Below, one piece after another: positions 31,105 through 39,193 of a stretch of DNA of 51,137 bases. The position numbers and the translations under genes were made by a program. Where the stretch lies: NCBI GenBank assembly GCA_020061705.1, contig JAGUXT010000024.1:1-51137 (forward strand), written 5' to 3'. Numbering within the stretch: position 1 is the first letter of the stretch; every line of letters starts with the position of its first letter. The notes below the pieces were generated by a model. The model was given only the letters and a program-made list of their open reading frames with translations, was not told the origin of the DNA and made no database searches. The stretch is from Halothiobacillus sp. (GTDB taxonomy: Bacteria > Pseudomonadota > Gammaproteobacteria > Halothiobacillales > Halothiobacillaceae).

Positions 31105-32289
31105 ATGAAGCAAGCCCGCATCAAGCAACGCCTGATTGAACGCCATGCCAGCGGCCTGTACCGCACGCCGCGCATAGCCGAAGGCGCACAAACCCCGCGC
31201 CGCATTGTCAACGGCCAGCCCGTGCTGAGCTTTTGCAGCAACGATTACCTCGGCCTGGCCAACCATCCCGAGGTCATTGCCGCCTTCCAGCGCGGTGCGA
31301 ATGAATACGGCGTGGGCAGCGGTGCAGCGCACCTCATCAACGGCCACACCCGCGCCCATCAAGCGCTGGAAGACGCACTAGCCGCGTTTTGCGGTTACGA
31401 ACGTGCTCTGCTGTTCTCCACCGGCTACATGGCCAATCTGGGCGCAGTCGGCGCGCTGGTCGGACGCGGCGACGCGGTATTTGAAGACCGCCTCAACCAT
31501 GCTTCCCTGCTGGATGCCGGCCTGCTTTCCGGCGCTCATTTCAAACGCTATCCCCATAACGATTGCGCCGCACTCGCCCAACAACTCGCCGCCAGCAGCG
31601 CGCAGGAAAAACTCATCCTCACCGACGGCGTATTCAGCATGGACGGCGACCTTGCCCCCCTGCCCGAGCTGGCCGCCCTCGCACGCCAACACGATGCCTG
31701 GTTGATGGTGGATGATGCCCACGGCCTCGGCGTAATAGGCAAAAACGGGCGCGGCACCGTTGAACATTACGGCCTGAATGCGCATGACGTGCCGATCCTC
31801 ATGGGCACGCTCGGCAAGGCACTCGGCACGGCAGGCGCGTTTGTCGCGGGCTCCAATGATCTGATCGAATGGCTGACTCAAGCCGCCCGCCCCTACATCT
31901 ACACCACCGCCATGCCCGCCGCCCTCGCCGAAGCCACCCGCGCCAGCCTAGCTTTGGTGGACAACGAACCCTGGCGACGTGAACACCTGCGCGCCCTGAT
32001 CGCACACTTCAAAACCGGCGCACAGCAACTTGGCTTGAATCTGATGCCCTCGGATACGCCGATTCAACCGATCCTGATTGGCGAAGCCAGCGAAGCCACT
32101 CGCCTGAGCAATCAGCTCTTTGCCGCCGGTATTCACGTCACTGCCATCCGCCCGCCCACGGTTCCCCAAGGCAGCGCCCGCCTGCGCGTGACCTTCAGCG
32201 CTGCACACAGCCTGCACGATGTAGATGAGCTATTGCACCAGCTTGCGCGCATCTTGGAATCGTTTCCACGCTCCGGCATGGGAACGTAA
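31105..32289 (+). CDS. bioF: 8-amino-7-oxononanoate synthase
   Basis: BioF condenses pimeloyl-ACP/CoA with alanine in biotin synthesis and uses PLP. The 394-residue product has [35 protein letters not shown] and the PLP-lysine motif [13 protein letters not shown]. The start is ATG 31105 ([17 protein letters not shown]). The reading frame ends inside a family C repeat: the last residues SFPRSGMGT are encoded by the repeat palindrome rather than by typical bioF sequence. The other biotin genes bioC, bioD and bioH are not in the window. Confidence 0.95.
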
Positions 32290-32603: not shown

Positions 32604-34979
32604 ATGAACTTCGTCCGCTTCTTCGATAGCCTTAGCCTGAGCGATGTCCCCCTGGTCGGCGGTAAAAACGCCTCGCTGGGCGAAATGTTCCACACGCTGC
32701 AACCCAAGGGCGTGAATGTGCCCAACGGTTTCGCCACCACCGCCGAGGCGTATTGGGCGGTGCTCGACCACAACGACCTGCCGGATAAGATGTTCGCCCT
32801 GCTTGATACGCTCGACATCGAAGACGTAGTGCGTCTGGCCGAAGTCGGTCAGACGATTCGCGACTGGCTTGCCCATGCCGAACTGCCGCCCGCCCTGACT
32901 GCCGACATCACCCAAGCCTATCGCCAGTTGTGCGACGAAGCCGGCAGCATCGTCGAAGTCGCCGTGCGCAGTTCCGCCACCGCCGAAGACCTGCCCAACG
33001 CATCCTTCGCCGGGCAGCAGGAGACTTACCTCAACATTCGCGGCGAAGCCAGCCTGCTGGAAACCTGCAAGCGCGTGTACGCCTCGCTGTTCACCGACCG
33101 TGCCATTGCCTACCGCACCCATCAGGGCTTTGCGCATGACAAGGTCGCCCTGTCGATTGGCGTGCAGCGCATGGTGCGCTCGGACATGGCCTCCTCCGGC
33201 GTGATGTTCACCCTGGACACCGAATCCGGCTTTCGTGATGCCGTGCTGATTACCGCCGCCTGGGGTCTGGGGGAAAACGTGGTGCAAGGCGCGGTCAATC
33301 CGGATGAATTTCTGGTGTTCAAAACCACGCTGGAAAGCGCACCGCGCCCGATTATCAAGCGCCAGCTCGGCAGCAAGGCCATGCGCATGATCTACACCCG
33401 CGATGCGCAGGCCGGGCGCTCCACGCGCAATATCGAAGTGCCGCCGGAAGAACGCCAGCGCTTCTGCATCTCGGATGACGAAGTGCTCGCGCTGGCGCGT
33501 CAGGCGGTGATTATCGAAAACCACTATGGCCGCCCGATGGACATCGAATGGGCCAAAGACGGTCACAGCGGCGAGTTGTTCATCGTGCAGGCGCGTCCGG
33601 AAACCGTACAGGCGCGTGCCGACATCCACGTTTTCAAGCAATACATCCTTGAGCACACCGGCGAAGTTCTCGCCACTGGGCGCAGCGTGGGGCAGAAAAT
33701 CGCCAGCGGCACAGCGCGCGTCATCCTGCACGCCAAGGACATGCGCCAGCTCCAGCCCGGCGAAGTGCTGATTACCGACATCACCGACCCGGACTGGGAG
33801 CCGGTGATGAAACTCGCCTCCGCCATCGTCACCAATCGCGGCGGGCGCACCTGCCATGCGGCGATTATTGCGCGTGAACTGGGCATTCCGGCGGTTGTTG
33901 GCTGCGGCGATGCCACGCAAACGGTGCCGAATGGCACGGAAATTACCGTCTCCTGCGCCGAAGGCGACGAAGCGCATGTCTACCGTGGCCGCCTGCCCTT
34001 CCGCATTGATGAACAACACATCGACCCCAACGAAGCGCCAACCCGCACACATATTTATCTCAACGTCGCCCAGGCCGAATCCTCGTTTGAACTCGGTCGC
34101 CTACCCGCCGACGGTGTAGGACTGGCGCGATTGGAATTCATCATCATGCGCAGCATCCAGGCGCACCCCAACGCCCTGCTCAACCCGCACAAACTGGATG
34201 CCGCCACCAAGGCCGCCATCACCGAACTGACCCACGGCTACGCGGATGGACGCGACTTCTTCGTCAAACGCCTCTCCGAAGGCGTGGGGCAAATCGCCGC
34301 TGCCTTCTACCCGCGTCCGGTGATCGTGCGTTTTTCCGACTTCAAATCCAATGAATACGCCACCCTGCTCGGCGGGCGCGACTTCGAGCCGGTGGAAGAA
34401 AACCCCATGATCGGCCTGCGCGGCGCATCACGCTATCACCACGCCGACTACGCCGAAGGCTTCGCCCTCGAATGCGAAGCCCTGCGCCGCGTGCGCGAAG
34501 ACATGGGGCTGAGCAATGTCGCTCTGCTGCTGCCCTTCGTGCGCTCGGTCGGTGAAGCGCGCCAAGTGATCGAACTCATGGCGCAACAGGGCCTGCGTCG
34601 TGGCGAAAATGGCCTGAAGATCTACATCATGTGCGAAATCCCCGCCAACGCCCTGCTCGCGGATGCGTTCCTCGAACTGTGCGACGGTTTCTCGATAGGC
34701 TCGAATGATCTTACCCAACTCACCCTCGGCGTGGATCGCGACTCCGGCCTGCTCACCGAGTTCGACGAACGCGACCCCGCCGTGCTCAAACTGATCGAAA
34801 TGGCGATAACCCGCTGCAAGGCACAAGGCAAATACATCGGCATCTGCGGCCAGGCACCCTCCGACTTCCCGGAAATCACCCGCTTTTTGGTGGAACAAGG
34901 CATTGATAGTTTGTCACTGAATCCAGATAGCTTGTTGAGAATGCGGCAGGTGGTAAGGGGGCAGGAGAATGGGGAGTAG
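32604..34979 (+). CDS. ppsA: Phosphoenolpyruvate synthase
   Basis: PpsA makes PEP from pyruvate and ATP, releasing AMP and phosphate, for gluconeogenesis. The 791-residue product has the N-terminal ATP-grasp domain ([31 protein letters not shown]), the phosphohistidine domain with the catalytic H418 in [14 protein letters not shown], and the C-terminal PEP-binding TIM barrel ([51 protein letters not shown]). GGAG lies eight bases before the ATG at 32604. It is divergent from tRNA-fMet. The PpsA regulator gene ppsR is not in the window. Confidence 0.96.
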
Positions 34980-35079
34980 GAGCACTTCTTGATGGGGGCT
35001 GGTATGCTTTGGCTTGCCGGTTTGCTCAGTCACCGATTGAACCATGCTGGCGAAAAACTCGGGACGATGTAGTTCTTAT

Positions 35080-35105
35080 CGTTCCCACGCTCCAGCGAGA
35101 AACGA
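35080..35105. repeat. Palindromic repeat, family C, copy 2 (partial)
   Basis: CGTTCCCACGCTCCAGCG followed by AGAAACG gives an imperfect palindrome of the same type as the copies at 32261 and 37436, but only half-length. It marks the border between the GC-rich core chromosome and the AT-rich deaminase gene. Confidence 0.6.
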
Positions 35106-35130
35106 TCCCAATATATAAACTTTTTATCAA

Positions 35131-35160
35131 GAAACAGACACCTTGTCAGGTGTCTATTTC
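35131..35160 (+). promoter_or_regulatory. Strong hairpin in the leader of the AvcD-like gene, possible AvcI-type RNA
   Basis: AGACACC (35136-35142) and GGTGTCT (35149-35155) form a perfect 7-bp stem around TTGTCA. GAAA and TTTC extend it past one mismatch. It ends 27 bases before the ATG at 35188. In described AvcID systems an inhibitory small RNA (AvcI) is encoded directly upstream of avcD. The 208 bases between ppsA and this gene could hold such an RNA. The hairpin could also be a leader structure. No promoter is convincing here. Confidence 0.4.
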
Positions 35161-35187
35161 ACGTTATGCAAAAAAATGGAAATAACC

Positions 35188-36996
35188 ATGAGTGAAGATG
35201 TTTCAAATGCACTTAATCGCCTCTACAAGGAAACCAGTGATTTTTTGATTATTGGGCTAACTGGAAGAACCGGCTCAGGTTGTTCCACAGCAGCAAAAGT
35301 TCTTTCGTCAGAGCATCCAGAGTTGCCAGAGGTGTCGAAAATCTACGATACCGACAACGATAAAAGAAAATATCGAATTGTTCGCAACTATATAAGCAAG
35401 AATTGGAAGCCTTTCGTAGCCATTCAAATTCGATCAGTAATTACAAGAATCATTCTTAAACTGACTTTCGATGAATTCTGTACATTTGTTGCGGTTGCAT
35501 TGAAGAATGAAACGAATTACGTGAGCGACAGGTTAGCGGAATATAAAGAGAGCTACACCATAGCTCATGAGTACATAAATAAATACGATTTGCTTCCGGA
35601 GTCAACCCCAGAGGAGAAGGTAGCAAAGAAGGAAAGTGCTTGGGTTACTTACTTTGAGAAGTTACCTGACTTCTGTGAACAACTGAAAGCCGCATTACAA
35701 AATAATTTGGGTACAGACTCCTACACAATCACCTATCAGCAAGCTGGCGATAACATAAGAGCTTCTGGTTCCGCAAACAACACCGAATTTAATGCGGACA
35801 AAATTTTCACAATACCTAATATCATCAATAAGTTAATCAAGGCAATTAGATATAAGCGAAAAAGTGGCGCATTCATTGTAATTGATGCGATCCGAAACCC
35901 ATTTGAAGCCATCTACTTCCATCAGAGATATGCCGGCTTCTACTTGGTGTCAATAAACACCCCGAATTCCGAGCGCTTAAGCCACCTCAGGGAAACCCAT
36001 AAGTTCTCAGAAGAGCAAATAATTGCACTTGACAACAAAGAATATCCAAAGAAATTATCCGGCAAGAATATTTATATCTCTCAAAATATTCAAAAGTGCA
36101 TCGAAATTGCGGATATTCACATTAACAATCCAGACAGGCAGAAGTTCAACAACAATGAACTGAGTAGCCAGCTTCATTGGTACATTTCACTAATTTTGCA
36201 CCCTGGCCTTGTCACGCCAACTTCGATTGAACGCTGCATGCAGCTTGCATATTCAGCAAAACTTAATTCGGGCTGTATTTCCCGACAAGTAGGCGCGGTA
36301 ATCACTGACCAAAACTTCTCAATTAAGGCTGTCGGATGGAATAACTCTCCCCAAGGACAAACTCCTTGCGTATTGAGAAATGCCGAAGAACTTTTAAACG
36401 GTGGTGAAGAAGGTGTTTACAGCAAATATGAAAGAATGGATGAGAAGTTTCATAGAGTACTAAAGAACACTTACCACCCGATAAGAGGTAGCGACAGCCT
36501 TTCTGGTAGAAATCTTTCGTATTGCTTTAAAGACCTTCAAAACGAAGTCGAAGGTGAGAAAAATCAAGTTCATACCCGTTCTTTACATGCCGAGGAAAAT
36601 GCATTTTTGCAACTCGCTAAGTATGGAGGTCAACCAATACTGGGTGGCATATTGTTCTCTACCGCGAGCCCTTGTGAACTCTGTTCTAAAAAAGCCTACC
36701 AGCTCGGCATAAAAACGGTGGTGTATATCGATCCATATCCAGGAATTTCACGTGATCACATACTTGGCGCAGAAACTGAAATTCCAGAGCTAATATTGTT
36801 CAGAGGCGCTTTGGGGCGTGCTTATCATAGGCTTTACCAACCAATTATGCCTTTGAAAGACGAACTTCAAATGGCAACCGGTTACACAATCACTGGCGGT
36901 GATGTTAAGAACGAAGAAGAAATTAGGGTTCGAGAACTAGAGACCGAGGTAGCCAGGCTAAAACAACAAATCGAATTGATGGGCGGAAGCATGTAA
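35188..36996 (+). CDS. AvcD-like antiphage deoxycytidylate deaminase
   Basis: A 602-residue two-domain protein. The N-terminal half is a P-loop kinase-like domain with Walker A GLTGRTGSGCS at 23-33 and VIDAIRNPFE near 231-240. The C-terminal half is a zinc-dependent cytidine/dCMP-type deaminase with the HAE motif (H467-A-E469) and PCELC (C496, C499). A short coiled coil ends the protein. This kinase-deaminase fusion is the architecture of AvcD/dCTP-deaminase defence proteins, which deplete dC nucleotides on phage infection and are held inactive by the AvcI RNA. ATG 35188 is chosen because the only earlier start, a TTG at 35143, lies in a hairpin loop. The gene is clearly AT-richer than its neighbours (two sampled lines are 42-43% GC), indicating transfer. 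Confidence 0.83.
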   Translation: MSEDVSNALNRLYKETSDFLIIGLTGRTGSGCSTAAKVLSSEHPELPEVSKIYDTDNDKRKYRIVRNYISKNWKPFVAIQIRSVITRIILKLTFDEFCTFVAVALKNETNYVSDRLAEYKESYTIAHEYINKYDLLPESTPEEKVAKKESAWVTYFEKLPDFCEQLKAALQNNLGTDSYTITYQQAGDNIRASGSANNTEFNADKIFTIPNIINKLIKAIRYKRKSGAFIVIDAIRNPFEAIYFHQRYAGFYLVSINTPNSERLSHLRETHKFSEEQIIALDNKEYPKKLSGKNIYISQNIQKCIEIADIHINNPDRQKFNNNELSSQLHWYISLILHPGLVTPTSIERCMQLAYSAKLNSGCISRQVGAVITDQNFSIKAVGWNNSPQGQTPCVLRNAEELLNGGEEGVYSKYERMDEKFHRVLKNTYHPIRGSDSLSGRNLSYCFKDLQNEVEGEKNQVHTRSLHAEENAFLQLAKYGGQPILGGILFSTASPCELCSKKAYQLGIKTVVYIDPYPGISRDHILGAETEIPELILFRGALGRAYHRLYQPIMPLKDELQMATGYTITGGDVKNEEEIRVRELETEVARLKQQIELMGGSM

Positions 36997-37083
36997 CAAT
37001 GCTGGGGATCAATGTGGTCAAACTCGACCGAATTTCCATTGAATACACCATACCCAATCAACCTGAAAACAGACATTCACCCC

Positions 37084-37413
37084 ATGGCAACCTCCCAAAC
37101 CACCATGGATTACCTCCTCGACCAGCTTTCGGGCTTGGGGCAGGTCAGGGCGCGCAAGATGTTTGGTGAATACTGCCTGTATTTTGCCGACAAGCCGGTC
37201 GCGCTGGTTTGCGACGATCAGCTTTTTCTCAAGCCGACCCATGCAGGCCGTGGCATGATTGAACACCCCGTCGAAGGCAACCCCTACCCCGGCGCAAAGC
37301 CTCATCTGCTGATTAGCGCCGACCTCTGGGAAGATCGCGACTGGCTGGGCAGCCTGATTCAGGCCACCGCCCTTGAACTACCGCAACCCAAGGCTAAAAA
37401 GAAGCCCGCCTGA
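37084..37413 (+). CDS. TfoX N-terminal domain protein
   Basis: A 109-residue single-domain protein of the TfoX_N family (YLLDQLSGLGQVRARKMFGEYCLYFADKPVALVCDDQLFLK, read in parts; then LLISADLWEDRDWL). In TfoX/Sxy the N-terminal domain belongs to a competence regulator, but single-domain homologues are common and their role is not known. The C terminus is lysine-rich (PKAKKKPA). The start is ATG 37084; no strong ribosome-binding site is visible. A degenerate copy of its 3' end is present at 38441-38548. Confidence 0.85.
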   Translation: MATSQTTMDYLLDQLSGLGQVRARKMFGEYCLYFADKPVALVCDDQLFLKPTHAGRGMIEHPVEGNPYPGAKPHLLISADLWEDRDWLGSLIQATALELPQPKAKKKPA

Positions 37414-37435
37414 GCATCTGCCGATTCCACCCTAT

Positions 37436-37540: not shown

Positions 37541-37612
37541 ATGGCAACTGGCGCATGACGTTTGAGTTCAAGGACGGTAACGCTCACATGCTGGACTAAA
37601 AGGACTATCACT
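37541..37612 (+). pseudogene. Remnant of a higB toxin gene (3' end only)
   Basis: The 72 bases match the 3' end of the intact higB at 38827-38898 at about 64 positions when aligned by eye. The translation GNWRMTFEFKDGNAHMLD is followed by a stop codon where the intact gene has Tyr, so it is decayed. The 5' part is absent; a family C repeat lies in its place. The remnant ends exactly where the phosphatase gene on the other strand ends. Confidence 0.8.
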
Positions 37613-38277: not shown

Positions 38278-38440
38278 CAGTCATGAGCCTCTGTGCGTTG
38301 TTCAATAGTGAGCAAAACTATACAGGAACAGAAAGAATGCGGGGTTGAGGCACATGCATTCGTTGATCGCTCACACGCTGAACGTGGGAATCAATGAAGT
38401 CTGACTCGATTGATTGCCCGCCCCCCCCTAGCAGTCTCAT
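38278..38440. other. Gene-free stretch upstream of the phosphatase
   Basis: This 163-base part of a 344-base gap should hold the phosphatase promoter. I see no ORF, no clear hairpin and no convincing promoter boxes. A run of nine C lies at about 38421-38429. The rest of the gap is a decayed copy of the TfoX-N gene 3' end and the higB upstream region. Confidence 0.5.
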
Positions 38441-38548
38441 TTACTGACTAGCCCCGACCTCTTGGAAAATCGTGACTGACTGGAAAGCCTGATTCAGGCC
38501 ACCGCGCATGAACTACCGCAACCCAAGCCTAAAAAGAAGCGCGCCTGA
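38441..38548 (+). pseudogene. Decayed copy of the 3' end of the TfoX-N gene
   Basis: The stretch aligns with 37307-37415 of the intact gene, sharing long blocks such as CCTGATTCAGGCCACCGC and AACTACCGCAACCCAAG. The Trp codon in DRDWLG is changed to TGA, so it is not translatable as TfoX. Similarity continues some 15 bases past the stop. The intact higB gene follows. The order tfoX 3' end then higB is therefore present twice. Confidence 0.82.
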
Positions 38549-38621
38549 ACATCTGTTGACTCTTGCTCTATTGCACGCTGTGCCTACTGTTGCACGATGC
38601 GCAACATGGTACGATTACGCC

Positions 38622-38900
38622 ATGATCACTTCATTTCGACACAAGGGGCTGCGTCAGTTTTTTGAGACGGGCAGCACCGCATGCGTTCAAGCCAACCACG
38701 CCAAACGGCTTAGGCTACAATTGGTCGCGTTGGATACCGCTCAAGTTATTGATGATATGGACATTCCGGGCTTCCGACTTCACCCACTGAAAGGCGAGAT
38801 GAAAGGCCGTTGGTCAATCACCGTCCATGGTAACTGGCGCATTACGTTTGAGTTCAAAGACGGTAACGCTAACGTACTGGACTACGAGGACTATCACTAA
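38622..38900 (+). CDS. higB: HigB-type (RelE superfamily) toxin
   Basis: A 92-residue mRNA-interferase-like toxin (MITSFRHKGLRQFFETG, LHPLKGEMKGRWSITVHGNW, ITFEFKDGNANVLDYEDYH), which matches the HigB/plasmid-maintenance killer family. The start is ATG 38622, in register with family length; a longer in-frame start at 38508 would read through the decayed TfoX copy. The stop overlaps the start of the antitoxin gene (TAATG), so the pair is translationally coupled. The toxin-before-antitoxin order is typical of higBA. Confidence 0.9.
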   Translation: MITSFRHKGLRQFFETGSTACVQANHAKRLRLQLVALDTAQVIDDMDIPGFRLHPLKGEMKGRWSITVHGNWRITFEFKDGNANVLDYEDYH

Positions 38901-39193
38901 TGAACATGCACAACCCACCCCACCCCGGCGAATTCATCACTGGCATTTATCTGGAGCCTAACAATATCAGTGGCCGGGTACTTGCCGAAAAGCTTGGCGT
39001 GGCAACCTCGACCTTAAGCCGCGTGCTCAATGGCACAAGTCGCGTGACACCGGAAATGGCGCTGCGCCTTTCCAAGGCACTCGGTCGTTCTGCAGAAAGT
39101 TGGCTTGCCATGCAGGATGCGCATGACCTTTGGGTTGCCAGGCAACACGTTGACTTGCAGGGTGTCAGCAAGCTGCACTTGGAAGTCGCTTAA
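38900..39193 (+). CDS. higA: HigA-type antitoxin (XRE family)
   Basis: A 97-residue protein with a helix-turn-helix (VLAEKLGVATSTLSRVLNGT) in a HigA frame (HPGEFITGIYLEPNNIS at the start, ALRLSKALGRSAESWLAMQ after the HTH). It should neutralise HigB and repress the operon. It overlaps higB by one base. Confidence 0.92.
   Translation: MNMHNPPHPGEFITGIYLEPNNISGRVLAEKLGVATSTLSRVLNGTSRVTPEMALRLSKALGRSAESWLAMQDAHDLWVARQHVDLQGVSKLHLEVA

Follow-up and report, generated by a model that had tools for sequence, protein, structure and literature searches.

An anti-phage-family deaminase gene of Halothiobacillus, probably captured beside ppsA as an integron cassette at attI

Introduction

Does the structured DNA in front of a putative anti-phage deaminase gene in Halothiobacillus sp. 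encode an RNA antitoxin, or does it have another origin? The gene lies in a window of 51,137 nt (the whole stretch of DNA that was analysed), and a preliminary description of the locus had taken it for a defence module with an AvcI-like RNA in its leader. Among enzymes of this kind, AvcD of Vibrio was reportedly described by Hsueh et al. in 2022 and the dCTP deaminases of E. coli by Tal et al. in 2022. In Vibrio, AvcI is encoded directly upstream of avcD (PMC10511110, PMC12409362); a functional AvcI needs about 171 nt, its full length is just under 300 nt, and host transcription shut-off activates AvcD via the loss of AvcI (PMC10511110). That integrons store anti-phage genes is established both in Vibrio and for mobile integrons (PMC12409362). 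We consider it quite probable that the deaminase gene was captured as a cassette at an attI site beside ppsA, that the integrase gene (intI) and the attC site were later lost, and that the hairpin in the leader is attI and not an RNA antitoxin.

A divergent member of the anti-phage deaminase family

35188..36996, + strand: deaminase with an N-terminal atypical P-loop domain, a C-terminal zinc deaminase domain and a coiled-coil tail (NF041025, PADLOC dCTPase, PF00383, alignments, model and fold search)

The reading frame of 602 amino acids bears out the proposed fusion of a P-loop domain at the N terminus to a zinc deaminase, with GLTGRTGSGCS at residues 23-33, HAE at 467-469 and PCELC (of the PCxxC type) at 495-499; H467, E469, C496 and C499 are the zinc-deaminase residues. 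Alternative in-frame starts occur at 35143 (TTG) and 35176 (ATG), and the ATG at 35188 agrees best with the homologues. The AT-richness first noted for the gene also holds, with a GC content of 0.411 against 0.613 in ppsA, 0.56 in the TfoX-like gene and 0.554 in the window; no other 1.8-kb stretch of the window is as poor in GC as the one that begins at 35101, in the deaminase region.

The protein matches the full NCBIfam profile NF041025 ("anti-phage dCTP deaminase") at 401.7 bits, a marginal pass against a cut-off of 400, as well as the PADLOC dCTPase model (467.7 bits) and PF00383. Its subfamily relatives are 40-55% identical, come from Cyanobacteria, Bacteroidota, Bacillota and Gammaproteobacteria, and lie on plasmids, chromosomes and, often, prophage contigs. 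They have in common the motifs GLTGRTGSGC, NQVHTRxLHAEENAF and TASPCELCxKKAYQL. As a yardstick for the known type we used the small-plasmid homologues of E. coli and Klebsiella, which are about 25% identical to the window protein and score 479-483 bits on NF041025, against 373-433 bits for the subfamily relatives; on these grounds we place the subfamily on a divergent branch of the anti-phage family. The E. coli members are present (over most of the gene) in 20 of 5426 genomes, where they are annotated as anti-phage dCTP deaminase. A scan of a genome collection with the single protein gave one relative, in Algoriphagus (47%), and a class-wide profile search of 369 genomes gave no further member at E 1e-60 or better. 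On the Geminocystis plasmid pGM01 (L009, 2350-5872), a subfamily deaminase adjoins a divergently oriented deoxyguanosinetriphosphate triphosphohydrolase; both enzymes deplete nucleotides and are of types familiar from phage defence.

The AlphaFold2 model of the deaminase (pLDDT 78, pTM 0.76) gave dCMP deaminases as the closest folds for the deaminase half, among them the bifunctional dCMP/dCTP deaminase of PBCV-1; by sequence, too, the C-terminal half has its best PDB matches in dCMP deaminases. The N-terminal half of the model weakly resembles dephospho-CoA kinase in the fold search. These matches of the C-terminal half, with the marginal NF041025 score, would suit a housekeeping or metabolic dCMP deaminase that has no defence role, a reading to which we give next to no credence: it is opposed by the fused atypical P-loop domain, the whole-length match to anti-phage models, the AT-rich acquired context, the absence of the gene from the other genomes of the bacterial family searched, the occurrence of subfamily members on prophages and plasmids, and a score of only 36 of 219 bits on the ComEB model (TIGR02571). 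The family models and the conserved subfamily instead identify the protein as a divergent yet recognisable member of the anti-phage dCTP/dCMP deaminases, with a predicted activity. With the known members (NF041025, PADLOC dCTPase, Vibrio AvcD and the E. coli enzymes) it has the domain fusion and the catalytic motifs in common; it differs from them in a larger helical insert between the domains and in having Cys32 in the P-loop.

The leader hairpin as a predicted attI site

35129..35169, + strand: attI-type recombination site, consisting of the hairpin 35131-35160 and the core box GTTATGC (35163-35169), with the expected crossover at 35163/35164
35164..35187, + strand: probable leader of the cassette itself, 24 nt; attI copies cease to be alike past GTTA(G)

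The strong hairpin already recognised in the 208-nt leader before the ATG is present, with arms at 35131-35143 and 35148-35160, and it recurs widely in relatives. Searching 27 genomes of the bacterial family with the hairpin and its tail, AGGTGTCTATTnCnCGTTA, gave 21 matches in nine genomes, which correspond to 19 distinct sites (two matches are the other strand of the palindrome); the reversed motif gave none in the same 27 genomes. The genes behind the copies are unrelated to one another. The motif AGGTGTCTATTnCnCGTTATG occurs twice in the window genome and four times in the relative G003, and what follows it differs at every site; identity between copies stops right after GTTA(G), where unrelated genes begin. 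The stem is 94% paired, and 9 of the 19 copies carry a two-sided G-C to T-A change, which tracks the genus split and may go back to a single event.

What these copies have beside them points to an integron. In three relatives (G006, G014 and G022) a complete intI starts 90 nt upstream of the hairpin and runs in the opposite direction, its product scoring 487-490 bits on the integron integrase model TIGR02249 (cut-off 265). In the closed genome G006 the site stands at the head of an attC array with about 15 members; in shuffled sequence the same detector finds 1.7. In G003 one copy (contig C37) is followed by a cassette that starts with GTTATAGG and ends in an attC of 55 nt whose R'' box, CTATAAC, matches; on contig C3 a site laid out in the same way adjoins a fragmentary intI. 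Because the hairpin stands before unrelated genes, lies 90 nt from intI and opens an attC array in G006, we identify it, on comparative grounds, as the inverted repeat of attI, a DNA site for the integron integrase and not an AvcI-type RNA antitoxin. A profile built from the copies at other loci alone ranks the window site as the best of the 51 kb (E 9e-6); among the copies it is the weakest (21.9 bits) and lacks clear direct repeats, whereas fuller copies elsewhere have further direct repeats to the left. We also considered the hairpin itself as an attC and rejected this, because no R'' box stands to its left; attI suits it instead.

Further attI copies stand without an adjoining intact integrase (G003:C15, C37, C43, C54 and C55; G000:C42, in the window genome; G004:C43; G006:C1 at 338706 and 991561). 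Several occur per genome, each before a different gene and some with degraded intI 5' ends, and they may be multiple decayed integrons or attI spread by recombination.

The leader and the question of an RNA antitoxin

34879..35055, + strand: ppsA 3' end and leader segment, recurring before unrelated genes at G000:C42 and G004:C43 (80-81% identical)
35077..35097, + strand: fragment of the dispersed palindromic repeat CGTTCCCACGCTCCAGCGTGGGAACG, with other copies at 32262, 37437 and 37510

The leader is structured, its folding beating 199 of 200 dinucleotide shuffles (z = -2.78), and it lies directly before an AvcD-family gene, the place that AvcI takes in Vibrio (PMC10511110, PMC12409362). From this one might suppose that it encodes an AvcI-like RNA unlike those described, making the locus a type III toxin-antitoxin module, a reading that we regard as highly improbable. 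Every structured piece of the leader also occurs at unrelated loci, as does most of its DNA outside the 24-nt cassette part; the segment 34879-35055, for example, recurs on contig 42 of the same genome before a different gene, where it is followed by the same hairpin. Only those 24 nt belong to the cassette, against the roughly 171 nt that a functional AvcI needs. Comparison of leaders across the subfamily found no common sequence or structure, and in the member on Picosynechococcus pAQ5 only 43 nt separate the deaminase gene from the preceding gene. Rfam, at gathering and at relaxed thresholds, assigned the leader to no RNA family, and a promoter scan of it gave nothing above chance.

We therefore reject an AvcI-like RNA: 24 nt leave no room for it, most of the rest of the leader is shared, and subfamily leaders are not conserved. 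Of the defence module first proposed, the anti-phage deaminase stands and the built-in RNA lacks support, its hairpin being better accounted for by the attI that lies beside intact intI in relatives. The likeness to AvcID thus comes down to a related deaminase with a structured stretch upstream; here that stretch is identified as attI, and we saw neither room for nor sign of an antitoxin RNA, some 171-300 nt long, that would belong specifically to the deaminase and lie directly upstream of it. An attI inverted repeat before a cassette gene resembles a structured leader RNA, and it is this tempting misreading that is corrected here.

In enterobacterial subfamily members (L020, L023, L024, L026, L029 and L030), tandem TGCCGCCA-like motifs lie about 100 nt before the start in leaders that have otherwise diverged; they might serve as an operator or as one arm of an attachment site, or be repeats of an RNA, and none occurs in the window.

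A likely cassette of a decayed integron

36989..36999, + strand: possible and weak attC R'' relic GCATgtAACAA at the stop codon (GCATAACAA is expected for a cassette starting G|TTATGC)

The attI site lies directly before the deaminase gene, the junction falls at the core box, and the ATG follows the expected crossover by 24 nt, as in a first cassette. On the right side no attC was detected directly after the gene, so it is from the left junction that we argue for a cassette. The possible R'' relic has a chance probability of about 0.002 to 0.14, depending on the tolerance allowed. An integron integrase is absent from the window genome, where the best TIGR02249 match reaches 78 bits (cut-off 265), and a profile search detected no intI remnant in the window leader; a degenerate intI 5' end there, plausible by eye, was discarded on that result. 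Among the subfamily members compared, no other was seen in an integron.

The missing attC, and the dispersed repeats that flank both sides, would also suit a gene that had never been a cassette and that ordinary recombination or transposition placed behind attI, in which case the hairpin would still be an attI relic and not an RNA. We think this unlikely, given a junction at the core box GTTATGC, which real attC ends in G006 have as well, a leader of cassette-typical length, the possible R'' relic at the stop codon, and genuine cassettes behind other attI copies of the genus. Cassette capture remains our preferred reading, and the deaminase gene is likely the first cassette of a decayed integron; we call it decayed, and not intact, because only a possible R'' relic is left of attC. 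With both integrase and cassette attC lost, the cassette is most likely immobilised.

In this the locus resembles integron cassettes that carry phage defence, which PMC12409362 reviews, citing Darracq 2025, Getz 2025 and Kieffer 2025: a defence gene with a short leader stands directly after attI. Relatives keep intI, attI and attC arrays, whereas here a single cassette without integrase or attC makes the site a fossil and not an active array. A gene of the dCTP-deaminase type would thereby join the defence genes apparently captured by integrons.

Proposed mode of action and regulation

A deoxycytidine-nucleotide deaminase gene would, as we see it, have been captured at attI beside ppsA and fixed in place once integrase and attC were gone. 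If it acts as the characterised members do, the enzyme would turn dCTP/dCMP into dUTP/dUMP when a phage disturbs the cell, and the depletion of deoxycytidine nucleotides would starve phage replication. Until then the deaminase would be kept silent without an upstream RNA, and it probably works without a dedicated one. If no AvcI exists here, activation through AvcI loss is impossible, since that route depends on AvcI.

The likeliest place for a switch is the protein itself, in its atypical P-loop domain, and not the leader. Cys32, nearly invariant across the subfamily, sits where the Walker A lysine is expected. The inactive control used for Vibrio AvcID is S49K+E376A, and S49 presumably is the P-loop position that corresponds to Cys32. 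We tentatively suggest, while thinking it somewhat less probable than its opposite, that the whole GLTGRTGSGC/LHAEENAF subfamily lacks an upstream RNA antitoxin, is switched by its lysine-less P-loop domain, and can hence move on its own, as a cassette that has a short leader; if so, an AvcI-dependent enzyme, unlike this subfamily, could not travel in that form. A divergent subfamily with no visible RNA antitoxin makes it testable whether every AvcD-like enzyme needs AvcI.

The ppsA-TfoX interval and its repeats

37007..37027, + strand: degenerate copy of the dispersed repeat ATCAATGGGGTCAGACTCGATTG, which in further integron relics of the genus likewise cuts off attC-like sequence

The nearest relative, G003, has the same ppsA-TfoX interval as window positions 34980-37006 with a different insert (L116 2603-4476, G003:C37), made up of a GmrSD_N (DUF262) gene and a HEPN gene. 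The PADLOC models matched by this pair are NsnA/PD-T4-2_A and PD-T4-2_B. As this second insert is also defence-like, the spot appears to collect such cargo and has the look of a small hotspot of defence genes. The insert in G003 likewise ends at the ATCAATGGGGTCAGACTCGATTG repeat. This repeat directly follows truncated attC-like sequence at G003:C3, C37 and C54 and ends a cassette pair on G000:C42; it may insert at attC hairpins and so lock cassettes in place. On G000:C61 it borders a RAYT-like (REP-associated transposase) reading frame.

Further along the window, the 3' end of the TfoX-like gene (37298-37420) is duplicated at 38433-38555 (87%), before a higBA pair at 38508-39193. A fragment of higB coding sequence lies at 37541-37581 (compare 38819-38867) and is also present in G003.
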